The notes beneath the pieces were generated by a model. It had not been told where the DNA came from and made no database searches. It worked only from the letters and a program-made list of their open reading frames with translations. From contig MCFE01000152.1 of assembly GCA_002104905.1 (NCBI GenBank), positions 89,079 to 153,078 on the forward strand: a stretch of DNA of 64,000 nt, read 5' to 3'. Origin of the DNA: Basidiobolus meristosporus CBS 931.73. Lineage: Eukaryota > Basidiobolomycota > Basidiobolomycetes > Basidiobolales > Basidiobolaceae. Made by a program: the position numbers and the translations under genes. Below are positions 14,105-64,000 of this stretch, piece by piece. Position 1 is the first letter of the stretch. Every line of letters starts with the position of its first letter.

Positions 14105-14542
14105 TTATATAGTGTAAGTTTCTCCACGAAGTCTTCTCGCCAAGTAAATATCTTTGGTTTGAATGGTAACACGCTTAGCATGGATCGCGGCTAGATTGGT
14201 GTCCTCAAACAGGCCCACTAGGTAAGCCTCCGTTGCCTCCTGAAGTGCAGCAATGGCAGTACCTTGAAAGCGAAGATCACTCTTGAACTCGCTCGCAATT
14301 TCACGGACTAGTCTTTGAAAGGGAAGTTTGTTGATAAGGAGCTCGGTGGTTTTTTGATAACGTCTGATTTCTCGAAGGGCAACCGTTCCAGGTCTATACC
14401 GGTGGGGTTTTTTCACCCCGTATGTGCGTCTGCTTGCTGTAACGGCATTCAGGGTGTTCTTACGTGCGATCTTGGGGATCAGCTGCTTTCTTGGCACTTT
14501 ACCGCCGGTTGACTTTCGCGCGGTTTGTTTGGTTCTGGCCAT
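14105..14542 (-). CDS. H3: Divergent histone H3 variant
   Basis: An intronless 145-codon frame starting [15 protein letters not shown], so the start is fixed by the N-terminal tail of H3. The fold region is well conserved ([20 protein letters not shown], then [20 protein letters not shown], then [18 protein letters not shown]). K4, K9, S10, K14, K18, K23 and K27 are present. Differences from canonical H3: A15V, A21I, S22P, A24I, S28N; 14 residues instead of 7 between K27 and V35, giving a seven-residue tail insertion rich in Arg/Thr; R63N; Q125Y; and a C-terminus GETYTI that is two residues longer than usual. Loop 1 has normal length, so it is not a CENP-A. No H4 gene is adjacent, unlike the paired arrangement common for replication-dependent fungal H3. 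Likely a minor or stage-specific variant; whether it is expressed cannot be told from sequence. Confidence 0.93.
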
Positions 14543-16204
14543 AATAAACTGGTAGCTTTGTGTGTGTGTGCACGTGTGTCTGCTAAATAAATAAAATGAA
14601 GTGCAATCTGTTGGAAAGAGAAAGTTAAACACCTGCCGATTTTTTTGATCGTAATATATATGCTTTTGACAAATGGGGGTTGTAGCCAATGATCATGCCT
14701 CTCGATATAGTTGCCTTTAATTCGAGTTTAATAAAGGGTCATGAGTGAATCAGATGCACTTTAACCAATATAAAACTGGTTTCTCTAAAATTGATGCATT
14801 AGCATTTGTATTGTCACTATGGATCGAGGAATGTTCTATGGAACACCTAATTCCACTCTAAAGAGCTCTTTATGGCCAATATGCATGTCACTTGAGGGAA
14901 GTGACTTGCCTAGGCTCAGCAATGGCAATGAAGCTGATTCAGCTTGCAAATACTTCTGAATAGAAGGTTGGTTTCCCAAGCTGAATCATGTGATAGGAAT
15001 TTCATTCACAAACACAGCAGATGCCAATGGGGATAAATGGAAGTAGTAACCCCATTGATTCTTGGATTAAAGCTCAGAGCTTTGGCACAGTAAATGCAAT
15101 AGTCTCTTATAATTGGATAGTATACTACTTGACAAAGCATTACCAATTTACTTATAGGCATTTCAATATCCAATAATATTAGGGAGATTCCATACCAGTA
15201 CTGTGTTAGGGAGGTGCATGATTGCCTACACTCCAAAGTATGGGGTTTCAGTACTGATGTGGAAGATAGTGATTTAGATCATCAGATAGTACCACAAGCC
15301 CTTACACCAAATTTGAAACTCACTGATAGTGCAGTTAAAGCAGCATGGTGCATTTGTAAATGGAATACAAGGGTACCAGAGTATTTGTATTTTTGAAGGT
15401 GTTGGTGTCTTTCTTTTGCTTGCAGAGCCTAGAGCATACCTTAGCATCCTCCGAATATCCTTCTGCCCGCAGGTAATTCATACCTAGTGGGCTTCATTTG
15501 GGTAGGTGATCATAAGCGATGCGCTCATGCAATTTCAAAATATATCTCCATCATCACAAGCTATCAATGACTCAGCTTCCGAGTTGGGCTTCCGTAAGGG
15601 ATGAGGGATGGTGAAGATTCTTCTGGAATGATCAGAATTCACGATTTGCCTGATGGCAATTTTGGGGTGGGATATGATCGATTTTGGGAGCAATATCCAA
15701 TAATATCGGCAAAGCGGATCGAGAATAGATGCGGTTGATGGCAGACATTTGCACAAAAAGCCCTGGTCAACCAAGTGTTTCAACTTAAAAAATCAATAGG
15801 ATTGTCCCATCTTCTAGGTTCATCCACATTTTGATAGGCAGTTGCTGTGGCACATCCATTCTGCTAGTATTGATACTTGTCTACGCCATTCATATCTGTA
15901 GAAGGTAAGGTGGATTCACACAGTCTTTCCTTGCCTACCTTGAGTTTCGTGACACGATTTCCAAGCCGTAGTTACTGGCACTTCCCACCATTCAGTTTTT
16001 CAAAACGGCCCGCTTCTCCTTTCATCTTGACAACTGTATTATTGAGTAGTAGTGTTTCTAATTCGCGCTCTTTAAATACCAGAACATCATCTACCGTATC
16101 CACGTAGCCACACTTCAGTCGGAGCCATTTCCATTGTATTGCTCGCACTTGCGCGTCCTTATTGAGCAGCCCGTTTTCCAGACCATTCTATAATTTTAAT
16201 ACTA
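14543..16204. other. Intergenic between H3 variant and deubiquitinase
   Basis: The part next to H3 includes a (TG)n tract (about 14560-14580) and AT-rich TATATATTAC (about 14652-14662) likely serving as its promoter. Around 14800-15400 several frames look coding-like in short pieces (for example 15214-15396 +), suggesting a degraded element, but no family is recognisable. 15535-16200 holds the deubiquitinase promoter and no convincing gene. Confidence 0.35.
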
Positions 16205-38004: not shown

Positions 38005-38511
38005 TCACAACAACTGTAGAGCGATGTAGCCAATAAGAGCGCCCGTTGACAACTTGGAGGCAGTTACGATGGAGCTAGCATCGTTCTTGTGATTGTTGTC
38101 GGATGGCTGAGATCCGGAGTTGTTGGTATTGTTGTTAGCGTTGCCATCGGAGGCCAAAATTTCAAACGATGGGCTGTAAGAGTAGTTAGGCGCTGACCCA
38201 ATTCGGATGGCATAATCCTTGGCAGGCGCCTGAGTGGCCGGGATATCCCACTGGTATTGGCCCGACGAGGTATCGACGTTGTTGCTGATGGTGGCAACGA
38301 GGGCCAGCGAGGTGGATTTGCCCTGCATCAAAGCGATGTCATGCTTGGCGGGCATGGGGGTTCCGTCGCTGTTATCTTGCCAGGTGATGATATTTTTGGT
38401 ACCTGCTTTCCAGGAGTTCTGCATCGGAGCGGTGATGACGGCTTTCGAATGAACATAGGTAAGAGCGGAAGCCATAGCTACCAGGATCGATGCATATCGG
38501 GAATAGTACAT
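38005..38511 (-). CDS. Kre9/Knh1-domain GPI-anchored surface protein 1
   Basis: A 168-residue frame with ATG at 38511 (the open frame extends upstream but the signal peptide begins here: MYYSRYASILVAMASALTYV). The mature part is one Ser-Thr-rich GPI-anchored/Kre9-Knh1 domain: AVITAPMQNSWKAGTKNIIT, then PMPAKHDIALMQGKSTSLAL, GQYQWDIPATQAPAKDYAIR and YSPSFEIL. A short Asn/Ser-rich linker with NNTNNSG glycosylation sites follows, and the C-terminus is hydrophobic (LSTGALIGYIALQLL) as for GPI attachment. Such proteins are wall or plasma-membrane associated, and Kre9/Knh1 are linked to beta-1,6-glucan assembly in yeast. This is the shortest of three tandem paralogues. TATA box at 38581-38586. Confidence 0.9.
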   Translation of the reverse strand: MYYSRYASILVAMASALTYVHSKAVITAPMQNSWKAGTKNIITWQDNSDGTPMPAKHDIALMQGKSTSLALVATISNNVDTSSGQYQWDIPATQAPAKDYAIRIGSAPNYSYSPSFEILASDGNANNNTNNSGSQPSDNNHKNDASSIVTASKLSTGALIGYIALQLL

Positions 38512-38580
38512 ATCTAGAGGTGTTGATGAGAAGCAGACCGAGCTTTGATTTATCGAATTCCAGAACCATCTACGCCGCTC

Positions 38581-38586
38581 TTTATA
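38581..38586 (-). promoter_or_regulatory. TATA box of surface protein gene 1
   Basis: TATAAA on the minus strand, about 70 bp upstream of the ATG. Confidence 0.55.
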
Positions 38587-40086
38587 GTTGGAAACGGGGG
38601 TCAAACGCTTCGTGAACCGTGAAGGAATGCCGAACGATGATATCCAGATAATCCACTGCATTAACCAATTCTCGTTAATGAAAAACCAGTGTCTCTGCTC
38701 TCTACGTCATACCGCTCTGCTTGAATGATGACGGTAACGCTGATGATGACAGATGATACACTTGTACGACGATACCCACCTTGTCCGGACTTTTAATTAA
38801 TATATCCACTCACCAACTACGGTAATCGTATACACGAAGGTGGAGATGGAGATTCTCCCCGATGACTGATAGCCTCGATTACGACTAAAACGATCCTCAG
38901 GTGACACCGACTAAACCTGAGCTGATCAAGCTTGGCTACGGCGGTGGACTCGTCCCGATCAATTCTAAATTAGTAGCGTGATCTACCCAGCGCAGAATCA
39001 ATCCGCCCGGGGGTTTCTCCAGCATGGAAGGTAGGATTTACTGAAATAAGAATGGATTCCAAGGCGTGAGACATTCATGTTTCATAACTGGCCGAGTATG
39101 TGCCAACCATTTACGAGAGTTGTTTACATCGTTCACTCGTGACATGTATGAGCATCATCCATACCACCAACAAGCTGGGATCGAAGCTGCCCCATTGAAC
39201 ATGGCAGCTCCGCCATCACCCATCTTAAATACGGAATAGAATATTCTGGGTGCATCGAATTAGGCCAGCTCCATAGAGAGAAAACTGGCTTTGTTTCAGC
39301 AAGGATTGGGGGTGCTAGTTAATCCTTTCTAGATATATCCTAATCCCCAAGTTTCAGTAACAGCACCCTGCCATCTAATAAGTGCTGGTCGGCAATATCG
39401 CAAACCAGTTGCTCCCGGAGAGGGGCCGCCCATTGGTCATCCGTGCGGGGTGGCCGTCGATATTAATTCGGTGACAGCCAGCGCAGCTCTTCACAAACAA
39501 ATCAGCAATCTCGGCTTGGCTCAGCCACATTGTGAAGCTGAACGGGCCCAACGTGAATAAAGCAACCCTATAGCCTTGCGAGAAGTGGCAATTGGCATCT
39601 TTGGAAACGGATCTAATGGATTCATCAGGTTTCCTCGAATCATTTCACAAAACTGCGTGTAGACTGTTTTTCTTATGGTAATCCTAACTACCATTTTAGG
39701 CAGCACAAACCAGTCCCATCATAATCTGGGGTTTCCGATGCGGAAATTCCCTCTTTGTGCACATCGAAATATGGTATTTAATTTACGTTCTATTTGACGA
39801 CTACGCCAAGATAGTTTCAGTGTGGTTGTTTTCTGGGCGTTTCCATGACTCGACTGGTATCATCCAATGGCCACCACCATAACCCGGATACATTGGCAAA
39901 TGTATTTCCTTCTTGCTCCGACCCATCTATGGCTGCCGGATTTAGTCTTGCCGTTGGCGATTACTCAATATTTCAACAGACAATTATTTATTTCTTGGCT
40001 TATGATTACGGGTAACACTAGAGATGAGTACAAGACGTGCAGACGCTTATGATGTGAGTATTGATATCATGGGGTTTTGTGTAGAA
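38587..40086. other. Spacer between paralogues 1 and 2
   Basis: About 1.5 kb of upstream DNA of paralogue 1. No supported gene. Frames at 39521-39706 and 39867-40052 are short and unrecognised. Confidence 0.5.
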
Positions 40087-40770
40087 TTATTGTTGAGCAA
40101 GACCGGCAAACACGGCGATAGCGCCAATCAGATATCCGGGGTTAAGGGCAGCACCAGCATTAGTAGCGGTAGGAGTGTGGGTGGCGGTGGAGGTGGAAGG
40201 AACAGCAGGAACCTTGGTACCGGAGCTGGTGGCAGTGCTAGAGGGAGAACTGGAGTTGGCAGAGGATGACACGCCGGGGGTGGAGCTAGCAGAACTTATA
40301 GGTGATGAGTTGCTGCTGGCGGGTTGGGAAGCAGAAGATGCGCTGGTGGAGGTGGAGCTTTGCGCTGGCTGGCTTGTTGTGGTGCTGTTTCCTCCTGGAA
40401 CTGCGCTTCCGCTAACAATCTCGAACGAGGGGCTGTAAGCGACGTTGGGTAGGGTGCCAAGACGAATGGCATATTCTTTGCCAGGGGCTTGGCCTGCAGG
40501 GATATCCCACTTGTATTGTCCAGTAGCAGAATCAACGTCGGTAGCAATGGTACCAACCAGCTGGAGTGTAGTAGCCTTCCCTTGCATGAGATCAATAGTA
40601 AGCTTGGCTGGCATTGGTTCGCCTTCATTATTCTCTACCCAGGTAATTATGTTACTGGAGCCTGCTTTCCAAGATCCCCCAAGGGGTGAAGTAACTGCAG
40701 CACCTGCGCTAACATATGTGATAGCAGTGCTAAGAACAGCGATCAAGGCAGTGAGGCTGGTGAAGTGCAT
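40087..40770 (-). CDS. Kre9/Knh1-domain GPI-anchored surface protein 2
   Basis: A 227-residue frame with ATG at 40770. Signal peptide MHFTSLTALIAVLSTAITYV, then the domain: AVTSPLGGSWKAGSSNIITW, PMPAKLTIDLMQGKATTLQL, GQYKWDIPAGQAPGKEYAIR, VAYSPSFEIV. It differs from paralogues 1 and 3 in a long Ser/Thr/Ala/Pro stretch (residues about 130-205, e.g. SASSASQPASSNSSPISSAS), a likely heavily O-mannosylated stalk, before the hydrophobic GPI tail (YLIGAIAVFAGLAQQ). The domain is followed in the same order by a stalk and tail in all three genes, so they arose by tandem duplication and then diverged in stalk length. Confidence 0.92.
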   Translation of the reverse strand: MHFTSLTALIAVLSTAITYVSAGAAVTSPLGGSWKAGSSNIITWVENNEGEPMPAKLTIDLMQGKATTLQLVGTIATDVDSATGQYKWDIPAGQAPGKEYAIRLGTLPNVAYSPSFEIVSGSAVPGGNSTTTSQPAQSSTSTSASSASQPASSNSSPISSASSTPGVSSSANSSSPSSTATSSGTKVPAVPSTSTATHTPTATNAGAALNPGYLIGAIAVFAGLAQQ

Positions 40771-40831
40771 CGTATGAAAAGAGGGAATTCAACAAATGGG
40801 ATGGTTGTCAGCACGGTGGAGTTCAAAGGTA

Positions 40832-40837
40832 TTTATA
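40832..40837 (-). promoter_or_regulatory. TATA box of surface protein gene 2
   Basis: TATAAA (in CGTATAAATACC) on the minus strand, about 62 bp upstream of the ATG. Confidence 0.55.
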
Positions 40838-41157
40838 CGTGTAGCCGGCCCTCCGATGACAAAATAAACCATGAGATTCATATCATTGGTGTTACACAAA
40901 TTCCAAATCGTCTTTGATGAAATCAAGACTAGAATGACGTAGAAATTCGTTAACCACCGAAAAGATTGATTTTGGATATATGTAGATGCACTATTTGATT
41001 GACTGATTTGCGACATTCGCGGTTATTTATATATCGAGTTGTTAATTAGGCCGCGCATTCCGATATCGGTCGATCAATCAATTCACATTTGACTGGTCAC
41101 GAAGTCGTAGGGGAACTCGAGTATTTATTTCAATTTCATATTCAAGACATAAACAAG

Positions 41158-41748
41158 CTACATGAATCGAGAGGCAATATAGGCCGCAAGTACAACGTTA
41201 CTCAGTTGTAGAGCTGAGTTCAAAACAGCACCATTTCTTTGTGTGGGAGTACCTGTTGATCCAGCATTAGTTGCTGAAGGGGTGTTGCCACCGTTGCTGT
41301 GGGCCTCGGTGACCTGGTTGGGTGCAGTGGAGGTTCCGGCTGGAGCACTGGAGTCCGGAGCTGCACCTCCACCCTGTGCACCATTGGCGCCTACGATTTC
41401 GAAATATGGACTATATGCTACATCTGGAGGGGTGCCAATACGAATGGAATAATCCTTTGCAGGAGCTTGGTTAGCGGGGATGTTCCATGAGTATTGGCCA
41501 GCTGATGAATCAACTTGGGAGACAACGCTGGCAACGAGTTGTAATGAAGTCATCTTCCCTTCCATCAAGGCAATGTCAAATTTAGCTGGCATAGGTTTAC
41601 CGTCGCCATTATCGGTCCAAGTGATGATGTTTGTTGTTCCGGCCTTCCAGGAGCTCATCAGAGGAGCAGTGATGGCGACGCTAGCGAAGACATAGGGAAC
41701 GGTGGCCCCCAAAACGGCAAGAAAGGAGCAAATGTTGGATAGGTACAT
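41158..41748 (-). CDS. Kre9/Knh1-domain GPI-anchored surface protein 3
   Basis: A 196-residue frame with ATG at 41748. Signal peptide MYLSNICSFLAVLGATVPYV, then the Kre9/Knh1-type domain (AITAPLMSSWKAGTTNIITW, PMPAKFDIALMEGKMTSLQL, GQYSWNIPANQAPAKDYSIR, VAYSPYFEIV). A medium Gly/Ser/Thr/Pro linker (residues about 123-175) and a hydrophobic C-terminus (LQLSNVVLAAYIASRFM) follow. No cysteine in the domain. Closest neighbour is paralogue 2, about 390 bp downstream on the same strand, so the 41149-40771 interval must hold both the terminator of this gene and the promoter of the next. Confidence 0.92.
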   Translation of the reverse strand: MYLSNICSFLAVLGATVPYVFASVAITAPLMSSWKAGTTNIITWTDNGDGKPMPAKFDIALMEGKMTSLQLVASVVSQVDSSAGQYSWNIPANQAPAKDYSIRIGTPPDVAYSPYFEIVGANGAQGGGAAPDSSAPAGTSTAPNQVTEAHSNGGNTPSATNAGSTGTPTQRNGAVLNSALQLSNVVLAAYIASRFM

Positions 41749-52836: not shown

Positions 52837-53147
52837 GTTGTAAGAGTCTTGGAGATATTGGAAGTGATTGGTGGAACAAGTAGATTATGTGGTTTTCACT
52901 TTATGATTAATTGAATGTAAAAGTAGTATTTATACTCTTAACTGGTCTTGGCATTACAGACATGTAGAATAGGTTAAGGAAGGTCCCAAGAACATGTGTG
53001 CAGAGTTTGGGGCTGTTTGGACAACTTTGAGAATTTTCATTTGGTGGGTAGCTGGTATTTTGGTGAAAATATTCTAAGTAAATCCCAACAAGGAATTTGG
53101 TCAGTATTCCCTAGGATTTGAAGGTAATGAACTAAGAAACTAAGTTA
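52837..53147 (-). repeat. MITE-like repeat interrupted by the LINE array (copy K)
   Basis: Minus-strand copy whose right end (plus strand GTTGTAAGAGTCTTGG) is intact. Its left end stops at AACTAAGTTAGG, where intact copies continue TGAATATTTAGG and about 30 bp more. The retroelement array starts exactly there. Confidence 0.8.
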
Positions 53148-54764
53148 GGGGGGGGGGAGAAAGTCACCAACAGGTGAAATCTTTATTTCAGTTGAAACAA
53201 AGAAGCCAGTGCTACTGTTGTAGCTTTGATACAAGAGTGTGTAGCTGAGGGGAATTTGTAGGTAAGTTAATAAGAAGTGATGATAGTTCTTCAGTGCTCA
53301 AGACACTGTTCAGTGGGAAGGGGGGTAGCAAGAGAGGTAAGAATGACTTGTGAAGAACATTAATGAGGGGAATGTGATAAGGATTGATATTCATCATAAA
53401 GGGAGTGTGCTGCTGCAGATATTGCTGCCAAAGGTCTGTCAAGTACTTCAGGTAGGCCAGCTTGGGTTTTTCTGACTGCAGAATATGTTGAGCAAACTTC
53501 TTGACTTCAGGATCTCCAAGTATAGTTCTCCAGCAGAGTCAGGTGTAGTGTGGTGTGTTCTTTTCCAGCCCTTAATCAGTGGATTGTTGCAGTTGTGAAG
53601 TCTGAGATATAATCTGGCTCTAAGGTAGAGAAGTCTGATCTTATAGGGCATAAACCCAAAAGCACCAAGAATAGCATGTCTGTAGGGGCATTCAGGCAAA
53701 TGAGGCACCAAGGAGGTAATGCACCATACTGCAAACTTGTCAAGCTTAGTGCAGTCTCTAGAGGTAAGAGAGAGAAGTGGTAAGCCAAATTCCAGGACAG
53801 GGAAGACAAACTGCTTGAGTAGAAGGAGGCAGCTGGGAGCTGAAGTTGTAGGAGGAGTAACAGCCAGTAGCTTGTGGAGTGCCTGTCTTGTCAGGATAAT
53901 TCTCTTCTTCAGGTGTGCTCCAGAGACTAGTCCAGTAGGAAGGAAAGGAAAGCCAAGATAGGTAGCAGAAATCTGAGCAGGTAGAGTGGAGTTCTCCAAG
54001 TTGATGGGAGAGCCCAAAGGTACTGTCTTTGCAATGGAAAGCTGGAGATTATTCTTCTGCAGATACTGGTGGATGGTCTGGGAGTCTTGTTGCACATTGG
54101 AGGAGGATATTCTGATGTCATCAGCAATGAGAGTAACCAGGCAGTCAGCTGAGAGTCTTGGGAAGTCATTCAGGAAGATGGCAAACAGTATAGGACCAAG
54201 CACAGAGCCTTGAATCACTCCATTAGGAACTGAGAACACAGCTGATTGCTCACTTGGGTGCAAAATTCTTGCTTGTGGATCCAGAAACAGAGACCTGACA
54301 AGGAGGGTGAGAGAGGTACTGGAGAAGCATTGCAACTTGGACCAAAGCAGATTTCTGTCAACTGAATCAAAGGCCTTAGTAATATCAAACTGAACAGAGG
54401 GATACTTGCACTGGAGAGAGTGATCTTGGCTAAGTATGACTGCATATTTCAAGGAAAGGCCAGGAACAAAGCCAAATTGTGCAGGGAGAAACTTGAGGGA
54501 GTCAGAATAGAGCTCCTGAGCAAGCAGAAGCTCAAACACCTTTCTGCAGGTGGGCAGCAGAGATATTGACCTGTAGGAGCTAGGATCCAGGTGCTTTCCT
54601 TTACCCTTGTACAGCAGCAGACCATTTGCAAAGGACCAGTCCTCAGGAGTAGAAAGCTGGGCTGAACATTGCTGAAACAGTGGAAGCAGAAGTGCAGACA
54701 TGGCCTTGGTACTAGTCTTCAGAAGCTCATAGGAGATTGTGTCCACACCTGGGGCAGTGGAGCT
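53148..54764 (-). mobile_element. LINE family B, 5'-truncated copy 1
   Basis: 3' part of an APE-type LINE. A frame at 53448-54746 holds the reverse transcriptase from the PGVDTISYELL region through YKGKGKHLDPSSYRSISLLP, FDITKAFDSVDRN and NGVIQGSVLGP. In place of the F/Y-ADD catalytic box it reads LIADDIRISS, where the other copies have LFADDIRISS. A 1-bp loss near 53530 (compare copy 2 near 55935) shifts the frame before the C-terminal part (53212-53442), so this copy is inactive. It ends with AATAAAG, a TCACC..GGTGA hairpin and a run of ten C on the element strand, then TAAC of the MITE. The truncated 5' edge joins GGGTTAGGGG at 54765. Confidence 0.9.
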
Positions 54765-54774
54765 GGGTTAGGGG

Positions 54775-54954
54775 AGGAAAGTCACCAAGTGGTGAAATCT
54801 TTATTTACTTATGACAAGTATCTAAAGAAGCCAAGTTAATCTGAAGTTATTCCTAGAAAGCTAGGTCTGAGAGATATCCTCCTGGTAAGCCAGGTCTGAG
54901 AGTTGAGAAGCTGAGTGGTACTATACTTCCTAGTTAGCCAGGTCTGACAGTGCA
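54775..54954 (-). mobile_element. SINE, 3' fragment
   Basis: About 180 bp nearly identical to the 3' third of the SINE at 62645-63187, including its tandem CAGACCTGGCTTACCAGGA-type units, AATAAAG and hairpin. It is cut at its 5' edge and followed by TTAGGGG and the next element. Confidence 0.8.
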
Positions 54955-54960
54955 TTAGGG

Positions 54961-55550
54961 GAGGGAAAGTCACCAAGTTGGTGAAATCTTTGTTTGAGTT
55001 AAGATCTAATCTAAGTACAAATAAAGAAGCCAATTAAGAGGTCTAGAACCTCTCTAATAAGTAATCTAATTTATGTTTTGTTTCCTCTCTAATGTTTGTT
55101 TCAATAAAGTAAAGCTCATCAGGGATAAATATAAAATTCAAGGGTTTTGGGTGAAGTACAAATTGTAGATGTTTCTGATCAATGTAATCCAAGACTGGAA
55201 CCCAGCCTGGGACTAGGTGTAGTGGGAAAGGTGTGTGAACTTGTAAGTAGCTCTGCCACATAGATTTAAGAAGGTCCTGAGCTAGTAGTCTTGGTTTTTC
55301 AGCTTTTTGAAGTTTTGAAGCAAGCTCTGTTACTACAGCAGAGCCAATCAGGATGAGCCAGCAAGAAGATTTCAGGGAGGAGTTAGATTTAAGCCATTGT
55401 TTGATGGAGGGGTTATGTGATTTCTGAAGTTTGACTAGGAAGGAAGCACGGAGATAGACCATTTGGATTTGGTATGGGTAGAACCCAAAGGCTCCATTAG
55501 TTGCATGGATATAGGTAGATACTGGAAGATAAGGTACCAAGGATCTGATA
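54961..55550 (-). mobile_element. LINE family D, 3' fragment
   Basis: Carries the C-terminal 165 codons of a family D ORF2 (55043-55540, from PYLPVSTYIHATNGAFGFYP to KHKLDYLLERF) and the same 3' end as the full copy. It is 5'-truncated; the joint to the next element reads CTAAGGGGGGG. Confidence 0.88.
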
Positions 55551-55617
55551 CACTAAGGGGGGGAGACAGTCACCAACAGGTGAAATCTTTATTTCAGTTG
55601 AAACAAAGAAGCCAGCG

Positions 55618-58384
55618 CTACTGTTGTAGCTTTGATACAAGAGTGTGTAGCTGAGGGGAATGTGTAGGTAAGTTAATAAGAAGTGATGATAGTTCTTCAG
55701 TGCTCAAGACACTGTTCAGTGGGAAGGGGGGTAGCAAGAGAGGTAAGAATGACTTGTGAAGAACATTAATGAGGGGAGTGTGATAAGGATTGATATTCAT
55801 CATAAAGGGAGTGTGCTGCTGCAGATATTGCTGCCAAAGGTCTGTCAAGTACTGCAGGTAGGCCAGCTTGGGTTTTTCTGACTGCAAAATATGTTGAGCA
55901 AACTTCTTGACTTCAGGATCTCCAAGTATAGTTCTCCAGCAGGAGCCAGGTGTTGTGTGGTGTGTTCTCTTCCAGGCCTTAATCAGTGGGTTGTTGCAGT
56001 TGTGAAGTCTGAGGTATAATCTGGTTCTAAGGTAGCAAAGTCTGATCTTATAGGGCATAAACCCAAAAGCACCAAGAATAGCATGTCTGTAGGGGCATTC
56101 AGGCAAATGAGGCACCAAGGAGGTAATGCACCATACTGCAAACTTGTCAAGCTTAGTGCAGTCTCTAGAAATAAGAGAGAGAAGTGGTAAGCCAAATTCC
56201 AGGACAGGGAAGACAAACTGCTTGAGTAGAAGGAGGCAGCTGGGAGCTGAAGTTGTAGGAGGAGTAACAGCCAGTAGCTTGTGGAGTGCCTGTCTTGCCA
56301 GGATAATTCTCTTCTTCAGGTGTGCTCCAGAGTCTAGTCCAGTAGGAAGGAAAGGAAAGCCAAGATATGTAGCAGAAGCCTGAGCAGGTAGAGTGGAGTT
56401 CTCCAAGTTGATGGGAGAGCCCAAAGGTACTGTCTTTGCAATGGAAAGCTGGAGATTATTCTTCTGCAGATACTGGTGGATGGTCTGGGAGTCTTGTTGC
56501 ACATTGGAGGAGGATATTCTGATGTCATCAGCAAAGAGAGTAACCAGGCAGTCAGCTGAGAGTCTTGGGAAGTCATTCAGGAAGATGGCAAACAGTATAG
56601 GACCAAGCACAGAGCCTTGAACCACTCCATTAGGAACTGAGAACACAGCTGATTGCTTACTTGGGTGCAGAATTGTTGCTTGTGGATCCAGAAACAGAGA
56701 CCTGACAAGGAGGGTGAGAGAGGTACTGGAGAAGCATTGCAACTTGGACCAAAGCAGATTTCTGTCAACTGAATCAAAGGCCTTAGTAATATCAAACAGA
56801 ACAGAGGGATACTTGCACTGGAGAGAGTGATCTTGGCTAAGTATGACTGCATATTCCAAGGAGAGGCCAGGAACAAAGCCAAACTGTGCAGGATGAAACT
56901 TGAGGGAGTCAGAGTAGAGCTCCTGAGCAAGCAGAAGCTCAAACACCTTTCTGCAGGTGGGCAGCAGAGATATTGGCCTGTAGGAGCTGGATCTAGGTGC
57001 TTTCCTTTACCCTTGTACAGTGGCAGAACATTTGCAAAGGACCATTCCTCAGGGGTAGAAAGCTGGGCTGAGCATTGCTGAAACAGTGGAAGCAGAAGTG
57101 CAGACATGGCCTTGGTACTAGTCTTCAGAAGCTCATAGGAGATTGTGTCCACACCTGGAGCAGTAGAGTTGGGAAGCCTCTTGAGCACATTATGGATTCT
57201 CCTTTGATCAAGTGCAAGTGGAATGGGCAGAGTCTTGAAGTCAGGATGAAAGCCAGGAGTTGAGTACTGCTTTGTAGAGAAGAAGATGTTAGTCAGCTGT
57301 TCTGTTGAAGGTAACTTCCTGGAAGAGGGCCTCATTGCCCTGTAGAGTCTTGATACTGTTCTTGTTATAGAGTTGGAAGATTGCAGAGGCAAAGAACTCA
57401 TAATATGATCCCAGAGCTGAGTATGCAGTGTGTGGTGAATTGCCTTGGAGTGGTGTATTGCTGTCAGGAGGAGTTTCTCTGTTTTTGGGTTAGGGAAACT
57501 CAGGTAGCTTTGTTGCAGGGCTGAAACAATGGATTCCCATTTCTTGAGGTAACAGCAGTAGTCTTGCATGGCAGTGAGAGGGAGGCAGACACCAGAATCA
57601 GATGCTTCACAAAGTGCCAGGCATAGTTGAGATCATCTGGCAGAGAAAGTAGCACACTGGCAAGCTTCAAGTAGTTCCCAAAGTCTTTCTTCTGATTCTT
57701 GGTAGCTTTGTGGGTGAGCACAGTAAGTTTTGGCAGCTTCTTCTTCACAACTGGTTGCATAGAAAGGGACCAGGCTGGGTGGTCAGAGGCTCTCAAGGAT
57801 CCTAGCACAGCTCCAGAGAATTGCTTAACTTCATTCACAAAGTAGAGGGCAGCAGCAGAAGGGCAGATCCAGTCAACACATCTTTTCTCAGATTGAGCAC
57901 CTAGTGCTAGCAGGTGGCTTTCTCTCAGGAAGTTCAGTAGGAATGTAGACCTTGGCTTCATTCTTGCAGTCAGAGTAGTCTTGTTCTCAGGATGGGGAAT
58001 GTTGAGATCTCCAAGCAAGATAACAGGTGTTGATATAGATTGTTGGTATTGCTGAACCTTCTGGCATATAACTTGCACTTCCTGAAGGGCAAGACTTGGA
58101 GGCAGATAGCAGAGCACCAGACTGATAGTTGGCAACTGGAGAGCAGCACAGTAAGGGGAGTAAAGAGGAACACAGAGCTGAGGAGTATTGATGGTAGAAG
58201 AGATGAAGCAGATAGAGGAGGTATTCTTTGTTCTAGGAGTAGAAAAGCAATATAGATTAGTCAAAAGTATAGAGGGTAGCTGGACATCAATCAAACACAG
58301 GAGGGAAAATCTTGAAAGAAGTCTCTCTAGAGTTGGTCTTGATGGCTGTATGCTGTTGCAGTTAAGCAACAGAACTTCAGGTAG
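55618..58384 (-). pseudogene. LINE-B ORF2 (APE endonuclease and reverse transcriptase), two frameshifts
   Basis: Read after the TGA at 58385-58387. The endonuclease part (57500-58384) shows LLLNCNSIQPSRP, LCLIDVQLPS, LCYLPPSL, LLGDLNIPHPEN, RCVDWICPSAA and ASDHPAWS. A frameshift near 57555 leads into the next frame, which carries the linker and RT start (KRLPNSTAPGVDTISYELL, NVLPLYKGKGKHLDPAP). A second frameshift near 56985 leads to 55618-56946 with FDITKAFDSVDRN, NGVVQGSVLGP and LFADDIRISS. The catalytic Asp pair of the RT is present. Two indels make the copy inactive although its sequence is otherwise fresh. Confidence 0.88.
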
Positions 58385-58387
58385 TCA
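58382..58387 (-). promoter_or_regulatory. In-frame TGA CTA between LINE-B ORF1 tail and ORF2
   Basis: On the minus strand the ORF1 tail EEATTSA is followed by TGA CTA and then, in the same frame, LPEVLLLNCNSI, the first endonuclease motif. The hexamer and its surroundings match the LINE-D site. Confidence 0.75.
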
Positions 58388-58769
58388 GGCAGAGGTTGTA
58401 GCTTCTTCAGAGGCAGCATTGATAATGTGACCTGCAGAGTCCAGAGCTCTTCAAATGGTGCATCACTTAAGTCAGCAAGGAGGAAATGCATGATCTGAGG
58501 AAGTATGCACATCATAGAGGCTGTCTTGATGAGCAAGAAGACAGAATGGCAACATGGCTGAGCTGTTGAACAGTAGAGTCAGAGATCAGATCTCAGCATA
58601 TCTGAAGTCAGTTTCAGCAGTAAGTTCTCACAAAGCAACAAATGTCAGCAATGTGGTCTAGGATAACTCAGAGTCTTAGGGTTAGGGGAGGGAAAGTCAC
58701 CAAGTTGGTGAAATCTTTATTTGAGTTAAGAACTAATCTAAGTACAAATAAAGAAGCCAATTAAGAGGT

Positions 58770-61619
58770 CTAGAACCTCTCTAATAAGTAATCTAATTTA
58801 TGTTTTGTTTCATCTCTAATGTTTGTTTCAATAAAGTAAAGCTCATCAGGGGTAAATATAAAATTCAGGGGTTTTGGGGGAAGTACAAATTGTAGATGTT
58901 TCTGATCAATATAATCCAAGACTGGAACCCAGCCTGGGATTAGGTGTAGTAGGAAAGGTGTGTGGACTTGTAAGTAGCTCTGCCACATAGATCTTAGATG
59001 GTCCTGAGCCAGTAGTCTTGGTTTCTCAGCTTTTTGAAGTTTTGAAGCAAGCTCTGTTACTACAGCAGAGCCAACCAGGGTGTGCCAGCAAGAAGATTTC
59101 AGGGAGGAGTTAGATTGAAGCCATTGTTTGATGGAGGGGTTATGTGATTTCTGAAGTTTGACTAGGAAGGAAGCACGGAGATAGATCATTCGGATTTGGT
59201 ATGGGTAGAACCCAAAGGCTCCATTAGTTGCATGGATATAGGGAGATACTGGAAGATAAGGTACCAAGGATCTGATACACTGATGGAGAAATTTATCCAG
59301 GCGGTGAAGTTCTCTGGAGGTTAGGGGTATAATGTGGAGACCAAATTCAAGTACCGGCAGTACATACTGCTTCAGAAGTATAGGGATCTTTTGAATTGGA
59401 GTGTCTGGAGTGACTACTACCAGAAGCTTTTTGAGAGCCTGTTGGGCAAGACGGATCCTATTATTCAGGTGGAGCTTTGAGTCAATCCCATGTTGACAAA
59501 ACGGCAGACCTAGATATATTGCAGTTTGTTGTGGCAGAATGCTAGTGTTCTGTATAGTTGTAGTGCATCCAATTGGGACTGTCTTGGAAATTGAGAGTGA
59601 GAGGTTGTTGGCAGCCAAGTACTTCTCAATGATGGCAGTGTCTGCTATGGGATTAGGAGTAGCAATCTTGATATCATCCGCATAGAGAGTTAGTAGTGGA
59701 TAGGGAGAGTCTGGTGAGGGGCCTTTTGGAAATAAAGGAAAGTCATGTAGGAATATCACAAATAGTAAGGGACCTAGTACAGATCCTTGGACTACTCCAT
59801 TTGGAACCTCATAAGTCTCTGATGTACAACTTGGATGCAAAATTTTGGCTGAGTTCTCACAAAATAGAGAACGTACAAGAAGGGTCATTGGTAGTGTGGT
59901 AACTGCTAATAGCTTTCTCCAAAGCAGAGCTCTGTCCACAGAGTCAAAGGCTTTAGTAATGTCAAACAGAATGGTTGGCAATGAGAATTGAAGTGAATGA
60001 TCATGGCTTAGCACTACAGCCATATCCAAGGAGAGTTTGGGCAAGAAGCCAAACTGAGAAGGATGGAATGGATATAGTTGAGATTGCAAGGATCTTGCTA
60101 TTATAAGCTCAAAGATTTTCCGGCAGGTTGGTAGGAGTGAAACTGGCCGGTAAGAACCTGGGAGTGAGTGTTTCCCCTTCCCTTTGTATAAGGGTATTAC
60201 ATTTGCCTGTGACCAGGCCTTTGGGGTAGTCAATTGTTGGGCACAGATAGAGTAGAATGGGAGAAGTAAGTGACTCATTTTGGAGTAGCACACCCGGAGT
60301 AGATTGTAGGTAATCAAGTCATGTCCAGGTGCAGTATTTGCAGGAAGCTTCTTTAAAATTTTCTCCAGAAGCTTTGCTGAAACCAAAATTGGAGATGTTG
60401 GACTGCTAGATATGTTACCAGTATGGTAGAAAGGAGGAGTGGGATGCATGGTTGAATCAAAGAATATAGGGGCCAGTTTGTCTGGTGATGGTATACTCCT
60501 TGCTTGGGGTCTCATGGCTTTGTATACTCTTGATATGGACCTTGTGGTGGCATTCATATTTACTAAGGGCAAGGTATCCATGATATGAGCCCATAATCTA
60601 GTATGCTCAGTGATCTGTAGTGACTTGGAGTAGGAGATTGCGCTTTCCAGGAGGTTCTGTGTTTTTGGGTTAGGGAAACATAGGTAGCTGGAATTTAAGG
60701 CAGAAATGATGGATTTCCATTTAAGTTGGTTTGCAGATGGCTTTTGGTAGGACTTGGTGGGCAGGGCCAGACAGCCAGTGATTATGATGAAATGCTGGTA
60801 AAATAGCCATAATGCATTTATATCATCACAAATCCATGCAGGTAAGCTGGGAAATGCATATTCTGTAAGCAAGGATAGGTAGTTGGCAAAGTCCTGTGTC
60901 TGTGATACTGAAGCTTTGGCTGGCAGGATTGTAAATGGCTGAAGAAGGGTGCCAATTGGTAGGGTTTTTCTGGCAGAAATGATAATATGTATTGGCTTGT
61001 GATCAGATTTCTCTAGTGAACCACAGCTGATATCCTCTGGAATGCTTGTAACCTGGTGGATGTACTGTAAGGCAGCTGGAGTAGCTGTTACCCAGTCAAC
61101 ACAACGTTGAGCTTGCTGAGTGTTTACAGTGACCAGATGGTTTTGTCGGAGGAACTTTGTAAAGTGCTCCTCTCGGGTTCTAAGTCTGGATGAAATAGTG
61201 GTGATATTTTCAGGGTGGGGAATATTTATATCTCCCACTACCATACAAGGGATTGATGAGCTGTTAATGAATTCTGATGTGGCCAAGAAAATTGCCAGTG
61301 TTATGGAGTTAGACAGAGATGGAGGGAGATAGATAATAATGGCTACTATAGTTGGAAGTGTTAGAGCATAGCAGTAATACTCATAGATGATGGATACATT
61401 TGCTGAGGGTGCAAGCTTAGAAGATGAAAGAGCAACAAGTGCCATTGAGTGAGCTGGAAATTTTGGGTGAGCAGATGAATATGCATTCAGTCTAGAGGGA
61501 AGTTTTGGCAACTTAACATCAATTAGTAGGAGCAAGGAATATTCCTTTTTCAGTAAGTTTTCTAATTCAGCTACAGTTGGAGTGATGGAGTTGCAATTGA
61601 GTAAGAGTATGTTCTGTAG
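58770..61619 (-). CDS. LINE-D ORF2: APE endonuclease and reverse transcriptase
   Basis: An uninterrupted frame of 949 codons following the ORF1 stop, in the ORF1 frame. The endonuclease motifs are LLLNCNSI, LLLIDVKLP (Asp where many families have Glu), IIYLPPSL, VVGDINIPHPEN, RCVDWVTATPA and KSDHKPIH. The reverse transcriptase has LPANTAPGHDLITYNLL, NVIPLYKGKGKHSLPGSYRP, FDITKAFDSVDR (catalytic Asp), NGVVQGSVLGPLLFVIFL, and LYADDIKIA (catalytic Asp pair). A C-terminal region of about 250 residues without a clear zinc knuckle follows and ends KHKLDYLLERF. It copies the element RNA at a nicked or free DNA end. The first in-frame ATG is about 60 codons in, after the first two endonuclease motifs, so independent initiation would give a defective enzyme; production by readthrough from ORF1 is inferred. 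Confidence 0.93.
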   Translation of the reverse strand, partial: LQNILLLNCNSITPTVAELENLLKKEYSLLLLIDVKLPKLPSRLNAYSSAHPKFPAHSMALVALSSSKLAPSANVSIIYEYYCYALTLPTIVAIIIYLPPSLSNSITLAIFLATSEFINSSSIPCMVVGDINIPHPENITTISSRLRTREEHFTKFLRQNHLVTVNTQQAQRCVDWVTATPAALQYIHQVTSIPEDISCGSLEKSDHKPIHIIISARKTLPIGTLLQPFTILPAKASVSQTQDFANYLSLLTEYAFPSLPAWICDDINALWLFYQHFIIITGCLALPTKSYQKPSANQLKWKSIISALNSSYLCFPNPKTQNLLESAISYSKSLQITEHTRLWAHIMDTLPLVNMNATTRSISRVYKAMRPQARSIPSPDKLAPIFFDSTMHPTPPFYHTGNISSSPTSPILVSAKLLEKILKKLPANTAPGHDLITYNLLRVCYSKMSHLLLPFYSICAQQLTTPKAWSQANVIPLYKGKGKHSLPGSYRPVSLLPTCRKIFELIIARSLQSQLYPFHPSQFGFLPKLSLDMAVVLSHDHSLQFSLPTILFDITKAFDSVDRALLWRKLLAVTTLPMTLLVRSLFCENSAKILHPSCTSETYEVPNGVVQGSVLGPLLFVIFLHDFPLFPKGPSPDSPYPLLTLYADDIKIATPNPIADTAIIEKYLAANNLSLSISKTVPIGCTTTIQNTSILPQQTAIYLGLPFCQHGIDSKLHLNNRIRLAQQALKKLLVVVTPDTPIQKIPILLKQYVLPVLEFGLHIIPLTSRELHRLDKFLHQCIRSLVPYLPVSPYIHATNGAFGFYPYQIRMIYLRASFLVKLQKSHNPSIKQWLQSNSSLKSSCWHTLVGSAVVTELASKLQKAEKPRLLAQDHLRSMWQSYLQVHTPFLLHLIPGWVPVLDYIDQKHLQFVLPPKPLNFIFTPDELYFIETNIRDETKHKLDYLLERF

Positions 61620-61622
61620 TCA
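61617..61622 (-). promoter_or_regulatory. Putative stop-codon readthrough site (TGA CTA)
   Basis: TGA CTA at the ORF1-ORF2 boundary. TGA followed by CTA is an established strong readthrough context in animals and fungi (for example fungal peroxisomal isoforms of glycolytic enzymes). ORF1 and ORF2 are in the same frame with no second stop, and no ATG precedes the endonuclease start. Confidence 0.75.
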
Positions 61623-62417
61623 GGCAGACTCTGAGGTTGCCTGTTCCTGCTGAAACTCTTGCACTGCCCTTTGTAAATTTCCAGAATTATTCCACAACTC
61701 TTCAAATGGAGCTTGCGTAATGTCTTTCAGGATTCTAATTGCTTCCTCTTTCAAGAAGTAGGCCACATCATAGGTTGGAGCCTGTTTCTTAATGGCAGCA
61801 AAGAAAGCCATAATTGCCATGTGAGCTGGGGGCTTGTTGAATATTCCTGGCTCAGTGTCCATTGACTCTGGTGGAATGATTGTGAATTTGGTAGGCACCC
61901 AGTTTAGATTTTTTGCCAGATACTTAGTCAATGCAGTGGAGAAGTTTCTGTCTACAATCATTTCTAGGATCTTTCCTCTTCTCCAAGCTAGGTTAACAAT
62001 TTTTGAAGTGTCAATATTTAGAGAGCGGAATGTATGTCTGATGTTTGATATAGTAGTCCATGGAACATTGGCAAAGTATAGCAAGGACCAATTCTGGAGC
62101 TGAGGTAAGTTTGCTGGAGGCTTATAGGTAGACTTCCTGGCAGGTTGTGTGGTAGGCTTTAGTGTTTCCAAGGTAGCAAGTTGTGGTTGAGACTTTTTGG
62201 AATTACGTATGACTTTGGAAAGAATTCTGCCAGCAACTGTGTCAGGAATGTTAGTACTCATTGATGGTGCAGGGCCTGGCTCCTGGTACTGCTTTTGTAG
62301 AATACTTGAGTATGTCTCTTTTTGTTTTCCTTTATCCAATGTGCTATGCCTTGGAATGGGATTTTGGGGAATAGAGACTTCAGGTATCAACTCTGGGGTC
62401 TGGTGATTGTCCAACAT
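61620..62417 (-). CDS. LINE-D ORF1: putative RNA-binding protein
   Basis: A 265-codon frame starting MLDNHQTPELIPEVSIPQNP. The first 100 residues are polar and disordered with a basic patch (RKSTYKPP). Residues about 110-190 look like an RRM-type fold as found in many LINE ORF1 proteins (WSLLYFANVPWTTISNIRHT, then FRSLNIDTSKIVNLAWRRGK). The C-terminus (ITQAPFEELWNNSGNLQRAV and EFQQEQATSESA) leads to the TGA. It would coat the element RNA. Upstream of this ATG another frame reads NDELKQRVQILEEKLKLKQQ, a coiled coil, so the original ORF1 may be longer and this copy may carry a frameshift near 62420. Confidence 0.75.
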   Translation of the reverse strand: MLDNHQTPELIPEVSIPQNPIPRHSTLDKGKQKETYSSILQKQYQEPGPAPSMSTNIPDTVAGRILSKVIRNSKKSQPQLATLETLKPTTQPARKSTYKPPANLPQLQNWSLLYFANVPWTTISNIRHTFRSLNIDTSKIVNLAWRRGKILEMIVDRNFSTALTKYLAKNLNWVPTKFTIIPPESMDTEPGIFNKPPAHMAIMAFFAAIKKQAPTYDVAYFLKEEAIRILKDITQAPFEELWNNSGNLQRAVQEFQQEQATSESA

Positions 62418-62644
62418 TGTTGCTTGAGCTTCAGCTTTTCCTCTAAGATTTGAACTCTCTGCTTAAGCTCATCATTTGATGCTATAAGTGTTGCATTGTT
62501 TGGAGCCAGGTCAGGTGTTGAGTTATGAAGCAGGTTGAGCAGCGTTCTAACTCCTTTGTTTGGTCATCCAACTTTTCTTCTAAGGTTGAACCTCAATTGA
62601 GTGCACATTTGAGGTTAGAAGCTCAAGTTATCAGCTTAGGGTTA

Positions 62645-63187
62645 GGGGGGAGGAAAGTCACCAAGTGGTGAAATCTTTATTTACTTATGACAAGTATCTA
62701 AAGAAGCCAAGTTAATCTGAAGTTATTCCTAGAAAGCTAGGTCTGAGAGATATCTTCCTGGTAAGCCAGGTCTGAGAGTTGAGAAGCTGAGTGGTACTAT
62801 ATTTCCTAGTTAGCTAGGTCTGAGAGAGGTTTCCTGGAAAGCCAGGCCTGAGAAGTGAGAATCTGAATATATCTGAGCTAAGTTATACTGGTTTGCAGTA
62901 GCTGAATTGTGGCCGGAATGGCCAGTAGACTGGGGGAACTGAGATGAATTTCTGGGCGATCACTGGCCAAATTTACTAGGCAAATCTGGCCAATTAGCAT
63001 TTCAAGGATTTCAGCCAATCAGAGCCTTTACTTTGCCCGATGGTTGATCAAGCCATCTCCCAATGAGCACACATCAATTTATTAATCAAATTTTGCTGGA
63101 TCCAGGATTTGAACCCACAACCATGGGTATGGAAGGGTTAGGGATAACCACAAGGCTAAGTTAAGAAGTCCAAGTGTGAATCATTGA
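62645..63187 (-). mobile_element. tRNA-headed SINE with LINE-like 3' end
   Basis: About 540 bp on the minus strand. The 5' head (about 63100-63170) reads AACTTAGCCTTGTGGTTATC and, 40 bp later, GTTGTGGGTTCAAATCCTGG, matching pol III A-box-like and B-box (GGTTCAAATCC) sequences of tRNA genes. The middle is unrelated and non-coding. Next come several divergent tandem units of the type CTCAGACCTGGCTTACCAGGA (62700-62860). The last 45 bp, AAATAAAGATTTCACCACTT plus GGTGACTTTCCTCC and C-rich CCCTAA, match the 3' ends of LINE B and D. This is the structure of a SINE mobilised by a partner LINE. It sits between telomere-like seams at 62635 and 63188. Confidence 0.8.
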
Positions 63188-63189
63188 TT

Positions 63190-64000
63190 AGGGGGGGAGA
63201 CAGTCACCAACAGGTGAAATCTTTATTTCAGTTGAAACAAAGAAGCCAGCGCTACTGTTGTAGCTTTGATACAAGAGTGTGTAGCTGAGGGGAATTTGTA
63301 GGTAAGTTAATAAGAAGTGATGATAGTTCTTCAGTGCTCAAGACACTGTTCAGTGGGAAGGGGGGTAGCAAGAGAGGTAAGAATGACTTGTGAACAACAT
63401 TAATGAGGGGAATGTGATAAGGATTGATATTCATCATAAAGGGAGTGTGCTGCTGCAGATATTGCTGCCAAAGGTCTGTCAAGTACTTCAGGTAGGCCAG
63501 CTTGGGTTTTTCTGACTGCAGAATAAATTCAGCAAACTTCTTGACTTCAGGATCTCCAAGTATAGTTCTCCAGCAGGAGCCAGGTGTTGTGTGGTGTGTT
63601 CTCTTCCAGGCCTTAATCAGTGGGTTGTTGCAGTTGTGAAGTCTGAGGTATAATCTGGTTCTAAGGTAGAGAAGTCTGATCTTATAGGGCATAAACCCAA
63701 AAGCACCAAGAATAGCATGTCTGTAGGGGCATTCAGGCAAATGAGGCACCAAGGAGGTAATGCACCATACTGCAAACTTGTCAAGCTTAGTGCAGTCTCT
63801 AGAAGTAAGAGAGAGAAGTGGTAAGCCAAATTCCAGGACAGGGAAGACAAACTGCTTGAGTAGAAGGAGGCAGCTGGGAGCTGAAGTTGTAGGAGGAGTA
63901 ACAGCCAGTAGCTTGTGGAGTGCCTGTCTTGCTAGGATAATTCTCTTCTTCAGGTGTGCTCCAGAGTCTAGTCCAGTAGGAAGGAAAGGAAAGCCAAGAT
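63190..64000 (-). mobile_element. LINE family B copy 3, continuing past the window
   Basis: 3' part of family B, including the C-terminal reverse transcriptase region (63252 onward: HLPECPYRHAILGAFGFMPY to LHTLVSKLQQ). The frame is open from 63252 to the window edge. It has no 1-bp loss where copy 1 is shifted. The 3' end has the same AATAAAG/hairpin and seven C, joined to the SINE 5' end through GATTAGGGGGGG. Confidence 0.9.

Follow-up and report, generated by a model that had tools for sequence, protein, structure and literature searches.

LINE, ORF1-only and SINE-like elements appear to stack on chromosome ends of the fungus Basidiobolus meristosporus, with about one telomere repeat at each joint

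The fly, which has lost telomerase, usually serves as the example for retroelements at chromosome ends, and whatever is said below of HeT-A beyond the source cited for it is general background. In the portions of the sources cited here, the Drosophila elements HeT-A, TART and TAHRE (together HTT) form head-to-tail end arrays with the 5' end outward, in which autonomous elements live with a partner carrying only open reading frame 1 (ORF1, gag), and the TRAS/SART elements of Bombyx have two ORFs, an endonuclease resembling apurinic/apyrimidinic endonuclease (APE), a fixed nick in TTAGG arrays and, in SART, a poly(A) tail, in a host that keeps its telomeric repeats (PMC7265360). Likewise, MoTeR1/2 of Magnaporthe, FoTeR of Fusarium and Cnl1 are described as fungal telomere long interspersed nuclear elements (LINEs) with short TTAGGG tracts between copies (PMC7367193, PMC12857005), MoTeR forming head-to-tail arrays with a non-autonomous partner that shares its termini (PMC7367193), and the Terminon/Athena elements of bdelloid rotifers as chains of head-to-tail copies, 5'-truncated against short telomeric stretches, whose RNA carries a 3' fold followed by a telomere-complementary stretch (PMC6431247). 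Here, we describe a window of 64,000 nucleotides from Basidiobolus meristosporus CBS 931.73, positions 89079-153078 of a contig (MCFE01000152.1, C372 hereafter) of 153,078 bases, at whose right end the window therefore stops; the assembly comprises 89.0 Mb in 1311 contigs. In this genome, several kinds of element appear to stack on chromosome ends, with about one telomere repeat per joint and often a telomerase-type cap, and the system looks like a separately built counterpart of the fruit-fly telomere elements. Its cast consists of two LINE families (LINE B and LINE D), an ORF1-only element (family E) and two short families resembling short interspersed nuclear elements (SINE1 and SINE2), with a common two-hairpin, C-rich 3' tail. 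No published report of such a fungal consortium was found in a literature search limited to open-licence papers.

Reading of the window sequence confirmed what a previous sequence-only reading had described, namely seven elements in the array region, every one on the minus strand and arranged head to tail (Table 1). The joint strings are present at all seven of their positions, and exact TTAGGG occurs at six of the seven joints (53145, 54768, 54955, 58676 and 58682, 62636 and 62642, 63188); the seventh, at 55553, is a variant which reads CTAAGGGG. The two longest elements (LINE D, body at 55557-58675, and LINE B, 58685-62635) carry two telomere units each at their 5' joints, as claimed. The reverse transcriptase domain of the leftmost element matches Pfam PF00078 (E 2.6e-21), and the seam in front of this element is partly older than the element itself, as another copy of the flanking repeat reads CTAAGTTAGGTGA there. 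The arrays at 53145 and at C27:10394 start at an identical CTAAGTTAGG site, each in its own copy of one dispersed repeat, where a chance TTAGG may have served both as landing point.

The 3' end common to the main families was searched genome-wide as AGTCACCAAN{2,3}GGTGAAATCTTTRTTT, yielding 1274 exact 3' ends (1183 plus, 91 minus), 1014 of which (951 plus, 63 minus) have TTAGGGG within 12 bases in front, with 0 for the reversed-pattern control in either count. Seams with at least two units number 316 and those with at least three units 69 (control 0 in each), counts that used a shorter anchor and are not strictly comparable with the 1274. Among 49 joints read base by base, TTAGGGG is missing from its usual distance in 10, each of which has a near variant, e.g. 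TTAAGGG, GGTAGGGG or a doubled G run. T runs of five or more are absent at 48 of the 49; since the single such run (C21) belongs to the flank preceding the seam, these joints show no poly(A) tail. In the copies read, an element has its seam on one side and is bordered on the other by the next element, telomere, another repeat or the contig end.

The usually fixed 5' end of SINE1 makes counting clean. Another element lies within 30 nt in 136 of the 213 exact copies of this end, and 21 run directly into at least four TTAGGG, leaving 56 in neither set if the two do not overlap; at least three of the 21 (C291, C424:311584, C980) are long seams before another element. In the 100 of the 136 joints that were listed, and copied by hand for counting, 70 consist of exactly one TTAGGG plus extra Gs, and TT follows GG in 97, even where a sequence other than AGGG comes next, which suggests that SINE1 probably ends in GGTT, its copied end being already in telomere register. 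Each family has its typical length of G run (LINE D mostly 6-7, SINE1 5-6, LINE B/SINE2 4-5), as expected if each RNA brings its own Cs; we read this run as three telomere Gs plus Cs supplied by each RNA.

The position of these copies was evaluated for rows on contigs of known size, a part of the full census. The copies are not scattered: on 12 contigs above 100 kb, all 31 plus-strand 3' ends among the matches listed lie no more than 21.8 kb from the right end (median 3.9 kb), 40 of 41 plus-strand seams with at least two units lie within 25 kb of it (28 contigs), and all 15 with at least three units within 6.3 kb. Two minus-strand copies in C80, at 1364 and 18332, lie near the left end. The right ends of 12 element-bearing contigs were also read, and nine of them (C1, C2, C21, C22, C23, C25, C36, C40 and C62; C25 to within 13 bases of its end) have about 28-40 TTAGGG in the last 260 bases, whereas C3 and C29 stop inside LINE D and C43 finishes in other DNA without telomere. 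C372 stops inside LINE D as well, short of any telomere array. From the polarity of the G-strand, the sequence-only reading had placed the chromosome end to the right; this fits the contigs that run through elements into telomere and then stop, and C372 goes no further on that side. Neither of the outcomes that the earlier reading had named as refuting it showed up in the material covered.

Telomere adjoins LINE D cut at different points in C2, C36, C40 and C62, and a SINE-like element in C21, C22 and C25; long telomeres directly abut truncated copies of LINE D and of LINE B. At the end of C1 (L002:1440-1500), a truncated LINE D is separated from the telomere array by about 40 bases of other sequence, and at the end of C23 (L045, right part) a tandem repeat of ~85 bases with CACTAGGTTAGGGG lies between a SINE2-like element and the telomere. 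Because the 12 contigs had been picked for having elements, an element-blind sample was drawn, consisting of the first 30 of 111 places at which a telomere array starts after a non-G base. An element was present within 60 bases in 16 and within 1.5 kb in 6 more (22/30), and in none of the remaining 8. Of the 30 arrays, 27 run for 130-297 nt to the contig end; the other three are a short internal array (L055) and two seams (L060, L074). Seven of the eight starts without an element within 1.5 kb are at contig ends, and three of these seven terminal arrays (C58, C114, C202) have element copies some 6-8 kb further in. In one case (L069:1434-1506), the telomere begins at the start of a tRNA-Lys gene. 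ARAGORN there builds the acceptor strand from the first telomere bases, an indication that the gene may have been cut by a chromosome break healed by telomerase. Arrays on non-element DNA indicate that telomerase-type addition to other DNA occurs here too. Two matches to the TERT RNA-binding domain at C880 (E 1.6e-8 and 9.7e-7, the second containing one TAG, perhaps an intron), with none in 14 control genomes, point to a telomerase-like gene.

Regarding chromosome size, C424 (312,558 bases) has SINE1 and at least four TTAGGG near both ends, facing outward, and may represent an entire chromosome of no more than 0.31 Mb. C1, the largest contig of known size, measures 0.35 Mb, and the karyotype may consist of many small chromosomes.

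The 3' module is composed of a hairpin UCUUUxUUUx...xAAAxAAAGA, a hairpin UCACC...GGUGA and a C run. An alignment over TCTTT...AAATAAAGATTTCAC...TTGGTGA...CCC takes in eight rows (LINE B, LINE D, SINE1, two copies of SINE2, family E, a SINE2-like variant F and a decayed LINE D relic in C402), six of which were folded singly and gave the same two hairpins (z -2.5 to -5.1). Across 45 copies, hairpin 1 is closed by C-G, G-C, A-U, G-U or U-G, the pair being broken in one (A-C); the SINE1 stem has two further mismatches, and the second stem is nearly invariant and hence says nothing on pairing. By alignment and by the covarying closing pair, the SINE-like elements have their 3' end in common with a resident LINE, as is characteristic of LINE-mobilised SINEs. 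SINE1 also carries a B-box-like stretch (11/11 positions); an A-box-like TAGCCTTGTGG ahead of it was found by eye, the scan ranking other places higher, and ARAGORN and Rfam gave no tRNA match for the head of SINE1, so that the label SINE is used for its size, the lack of a long ORF and the common 3' end. The SINE1 copy of the window has, at 63150-63187, a 5' leader unlike the usual AAGTGTTCTTGG end.

Family E (L029:1536-2481) is an element of ~0.95 kb with a 266-aa frame that matches the ORF1 of LINE B and of LINE D (E 4e-11 and 3e-12), and no reverse transcriptase frame is present in this copy. Its exact 3' ends number 45 (40 plus, 5 minus). A second copy shares 98.6% identity with it over 627 nt of the frame; the two differ by 4 synonymous and 3 non-synonymous changes and one gap column, and there is no stop. 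An older copy is at 88% and has 3 stops. Judged by these frames, family E is a gag-only-type partner resembling HeT-A, and may be mobile.

The proteins that could serve such RNAs are those of the two LINEs. LINE B encodes a non-LTR (long terminal repeat) reverse transcriptase, as indicated by its RVT_1 match (E 1.3e-20) and by human LINE-1 ORF2p as best match in the PDB (E 2.7e-11), ahead of R2 (1.5e-5). LINE D ORF2 (922 aa, open in the C3 copy) is 46% identical to LINE B ORF2 (949 aa). An LTR origin was rejected, since the ORFs gave only reverse transcriptase and endonuclease domains fitting a LINE. No Pfam endonuclease match was obtained for LINE B; LINE D also matches Exo_endo_phos (E 1.1e-3), like its match in Table 1 under the cut-off. 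An AlphaFold model of the LINE B endonuclease (three-sequence input, 216 aa, predicted local distance difference test 64, predicted template-modelling score 0.64, C-terminal part poor) gave Foldseek matches to APE1 (E 5.8e-7), TRAS1-EN (3.5e-6) and R1Bm-EN (1.1e-5), and in this predicted fold the endonuclease of the two LINEs is APE-like. The GD.N and SDH motifs are kept in both. Two CCHC patterns are absent from both ORF2s.

Between ORF1 and ORF2, both LINEs have an in-frame UGA followed by CUA, in LINE D also at C3:172000-172025. A search for the LINE D border with fixed flanks, which favour young copies, gave 132 sites; among the 100 listed, UGA is present in 100 and UGA-CUA in 99. In the part of the literature consulted, UGA-CUAG is an efficient readthrough signal in mammals (PMC4132726), and ORF2 may be made here by stop-codon readthrough.

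Polarity, head-to-tail order, seams, the 3' module, the terminal location in the samples, the (TTAGGG)n caps, the varied 5' truncation and the telomerase-like gene can all be read from the sequence. On this basis, we consider it reasonably probable that serial retrotransposition built up the array as part of a chromosome end, with the ends primed directly by their G-strand. LINEs B and D, with their APE-like endonuclease, would supply the reverse transcriptase, and the LINE RNAs, the ORF1-only RNA of family E and the SINE-like RNAs would present one 3' structure. The C run would pair with the 3' G-strand of an end bearing only about one telomeric repeat, and the RNA would be copied straight onto this end; the new 3' end, often left by an early stop of the enzyme, would again be bare and would take either the next element or telomerase repeats. 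Many seam repeats would represent a first telomerase round, taken over by an element before the telomere grows, with the C run coming from the element. What we infer here is the use of the end itself as primer, the movement of family E and the SINEs by LINE proteins and the first-round telomerase origin of many seam repeats; these repeats may sit on the primer, instead of the element RNA carrying CCCUAACCC.

A feature that goes beyond the sequence-only reading is that the seams are short, mostly one repeat, while the terminal arrays run for 130-297 nt, so that elements seem to join nearly bare ends; the fall-off over at least one, two and three units (1014, 316 and 69, with slightly different anchors) argues in the same direction. 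The proposal in the earlier reading that the telomere is the substrate is supported as regards attachment to ends, although an ordinary long telomere is a less likely substrate than a nearly bare end or the telomere base, the seams being too short.

Several observations weigh against the telomeric seams or against end-primed stacking. TTAGGG is not enriched across the window (23 found, 30 expected from shuffles), and 4 of the 12 plus-strand TTAGGG of the array region lie off the joints, inside elements (57490, 59321, 60670, 63138), for which reason the case rests on joint position and not on hexamer counts. TTAGGGG is lacking at 260 of the 1274 3' ends. One copy lies 80 kb inside its contig (C402, at 165,365 of 246,065); it is the decayed LINE D relic mentioned above (C402:165365-166600, L051), with a two-unit seam TTAGGGTTAGGGGG, beside an apparent gene and then another repeat, and may be a fossil chromosome end. 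Microhomology was scored at 33 of 55 joints, 22 being dropped (15 for want of a close reference, 6 because they were natural SINE ends and 1 because the reference had a joint of its own). At least 3 nt are shared with the telomere cycle at 7/33 (null from LINE D 6.2%, binomial p 0.004), which speaks for end priming, with a p value to be read cautiously because three thresholds and three scorings were looked at; at the threshold of at least 2 nt the result is not significant (9/33, p 0.18). A looser scoring, which gave 19/38 at the latter threshold (null 26%), bridged mismatches and was dropped as biased; it produced artefacts, and its mean lay below the null. Moreover, both LINEs have kept an endonuclease, which a purely end-primed element would not need; a residue expected to be the presumably catalytic Glu reads Asp (LID) in both.

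The retained endonuclease brings in a different route, in which, in the manner of TRAS/SART or MoTeR, the G strand is nicked in the first one or two repeats beside the subtelomere and the old distal telomere stays in place. The APE-like fold with TRAS1-EN among its matches, the motifs kept in both LINEs and the two array bases (C372, C27) at the same site of one repeat fit such insertion; the final structure, element and then telomere, equals that of end attachment, and in the cited portion of the MoTeR study the stable tracts between elements are likewise of no more than 2 repeats (PMC7367193). Yet a nick should fall anywhere in an array of ~35 repeats, whereas only 69 seams have at least three units, and where a reference exists, the array bases mostly lie on sequences that differ, so that we judge this route unlikely. 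Better placed, and possible in our estimation, is a variant of end priming in which the seam repeats are copied from an element RNA with CCCCUAACC at its 3' end, the enzyme extending any end with 2-4 nt of telomeric microhomology and telomerase providing the final cap only. The GGTT of 97/100 SINE1 joints speaks for it, as 70/100 would need only AGGG plus Gs to be added, and rotifer Terminon RNAs, in the passages cited, carry reverse-complement telomere repeats after their 3' fold (PMC6431247). It accounts less well for the seams of 5 and 7 units between elements (L074, L060) and for the C505 seam, which has the GGTTAGGTTAGGG variant also found in terminal arrays. RNA-templated seams are nearly as good an explanation as the favoured priming model, and nicking at the telomere base would give the same final DNA too.

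Arrays could also spread from one chromosome end to another mainly by recombination or break-induced copying, little retrotransposition taking place at present; such spread occurs in MoTeR arrays according to the cited portion of that study (PMC7367193), and some contig pairs, e.g. C488/C489, may share joints at similar positions. The 49 joints read vary widely in truncation point and in partner, which makes such spread improbable as the main source. An assembly artefact at repeat-rich contig ends would find its argument in the nearly uniform orientation of telomere triplets (8002 plus, 103 minus) and element 3' ends (1183 plus, 91 minus). This one-sidedness probably does come from assembly, and it affects elements and telomeres alike; some assemblers habitually drop the first read of each contig, perhaps the source of the bias. 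As a cause of the joints themselves, an artefact was rejected as hardly credible in view of more than 1000 joints with consistent polarity and of the outward-facing C424 ends.

Returning to serial end-primed retrotransposition, a wider picture may be drawn, which we put forward tentatively and with slightly more doubt than confidence. A complete telomere consortium would have evolved separately in a fungus that keeps telomerase; through one 3' fold, the LINE enzymes would serve not only their own RNAs but also an ORF1-only RNA and two or more SINE-like RNAs. This consortium would be in competition with telomerase for newly exposed ends, so that a break at any place in a karyotype of small chromosomes would be healed by the first-arriving reverse transcriptase; telomere-specialised SINEs would be included. 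A fly-like division of labour between an autonomous LINE, an ORF1-only partner and SINE-like parasites would here stand beside a telomerase-like gene and TTAGGG caps. The high copy number, with more than 1000 natural joints to read, makes the competition between telomerase and a retrotransposon reverse transcriptase at broken ends measurable, and provides a natural test of the way in which RNA tails choose chromosome ends.

Elsewhere in the window, three similar-looking minus-strand ORFs lie at 38005-41748, of which the one tested, 40087-40770, matches Kre9_KNH, and an ORF at 14105-14689 contains the start of histone H3, as read by eye.

Table 1. Features of the retroelement array at the right end of the window (window coordinates)
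Feature	Position	Strand	Remarks
Element 1, 5'-truncated LINE D	53145..54764	-	3' joint TTAGGGGGGGGGGAG at 53145-53159, on broken dispersed repeat
Element 2, SINE1 3' fragment	54765..54954	-	joint GGGTTAGGGG at 54765-54774
Element 3, LINE B 3' fragment	54955..55552	-	joint TTAGGGG from 54955
Element 4, long LINE D copy	55553..58675	-	frame broken, 5' part lost within ORF1; variant joint CTAAGGGGGGG at 55553
LINE D ORF2 endonuclease part, APE-like (predicted)	57752..58384	-	Exo_endo_phos_2 E 1.2e-4, under curated cut-off; modelled jointly with LINE B
LINE D ORF1/ORF2 border	58385..58387	-	in-frame UGA, then CUA
Two-unit seam TTAGGGTTAGGG	58676..58687	+	
Element 5, LINE B, both ORFs open	58685..62635	-	putative 5' end
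LINE B 3' module	58688..58755	-	two hairpins, then UUUCCCUCCCC
LINE B ORF2, 949 aa, APE-like (predicted) endonuclease and reverse transcriptase	58770..61619	-	PF00078 E 1.3e-20
LINE B ORF1/ORF2 border	61620..61622	-	in-frame UGA, then CUA
LINE B ORF1, 265 aa	61623..62417	-	no Pfam match
Two-unit seam TTAGGGTTAGGG	62636..62647	+	
Element 6, SINE1	62645..63187	-	LINE B-type 3' module; B-box-like stretch near 5' end
Element 7, LINE D, cut by contig end	63188..64000	-	joint TTAGGGGGGG at 63188

Compared with the described systems, the rows examined show the end location and fixed polarity of telomere-attached non-LTR retrotransposons, with the one decayed exception in C402. The fungal system shares with the CRE-clade elements MoTeR, FoTeR and Cnl1 its short TTAGGG tracts and, with MoTeR, its arrays and non-autonomous partners. 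It differs in the endonuclease, which in the portions of those sources cited is restriction-enzyme-like, whereas here the predicted fold is APE-like and the CCHC motif of a zinc knuckle is missing; moreover, MoTeR is described there as having telomere-like repeats at its own 5' end, and none are present at the SINE1, SINE2 and family E 5' ends read. The APE-type endonuclease, the two ORFs and a host with telomeric repeats are common to TRAS/SART, but neither a poly(A) tail nor insertion inside long telomere arrays is seen at the fungal joints read, which have mostly one repeat. With the Terminons, the fungal elements share the folded, telomere-complementary 3' end, the 5' truncation and the chains; those are, in the passages cited, Penelope-like and endonuclease-deficient with a hammerhead fold (PMC6431247), whereas here the reverse transcriptase is nearest to LINE-1 among solved structures, an APE-like endonuclease is predicted and the fold consists of two plain hairpins. 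The likeness to Drosophila HTT extends to the ORF1-only partner, family E; unlike the fly, which has lost telomerase, the fungus has TERT matches and TTAGGG caps, a telomere repeat at its joints, SINE-like participants and a tail that is C-rich where that of the fly is A-rich. Overall, the fungal system works like fly HTT and rotifer Terminons, and is a member of neither.

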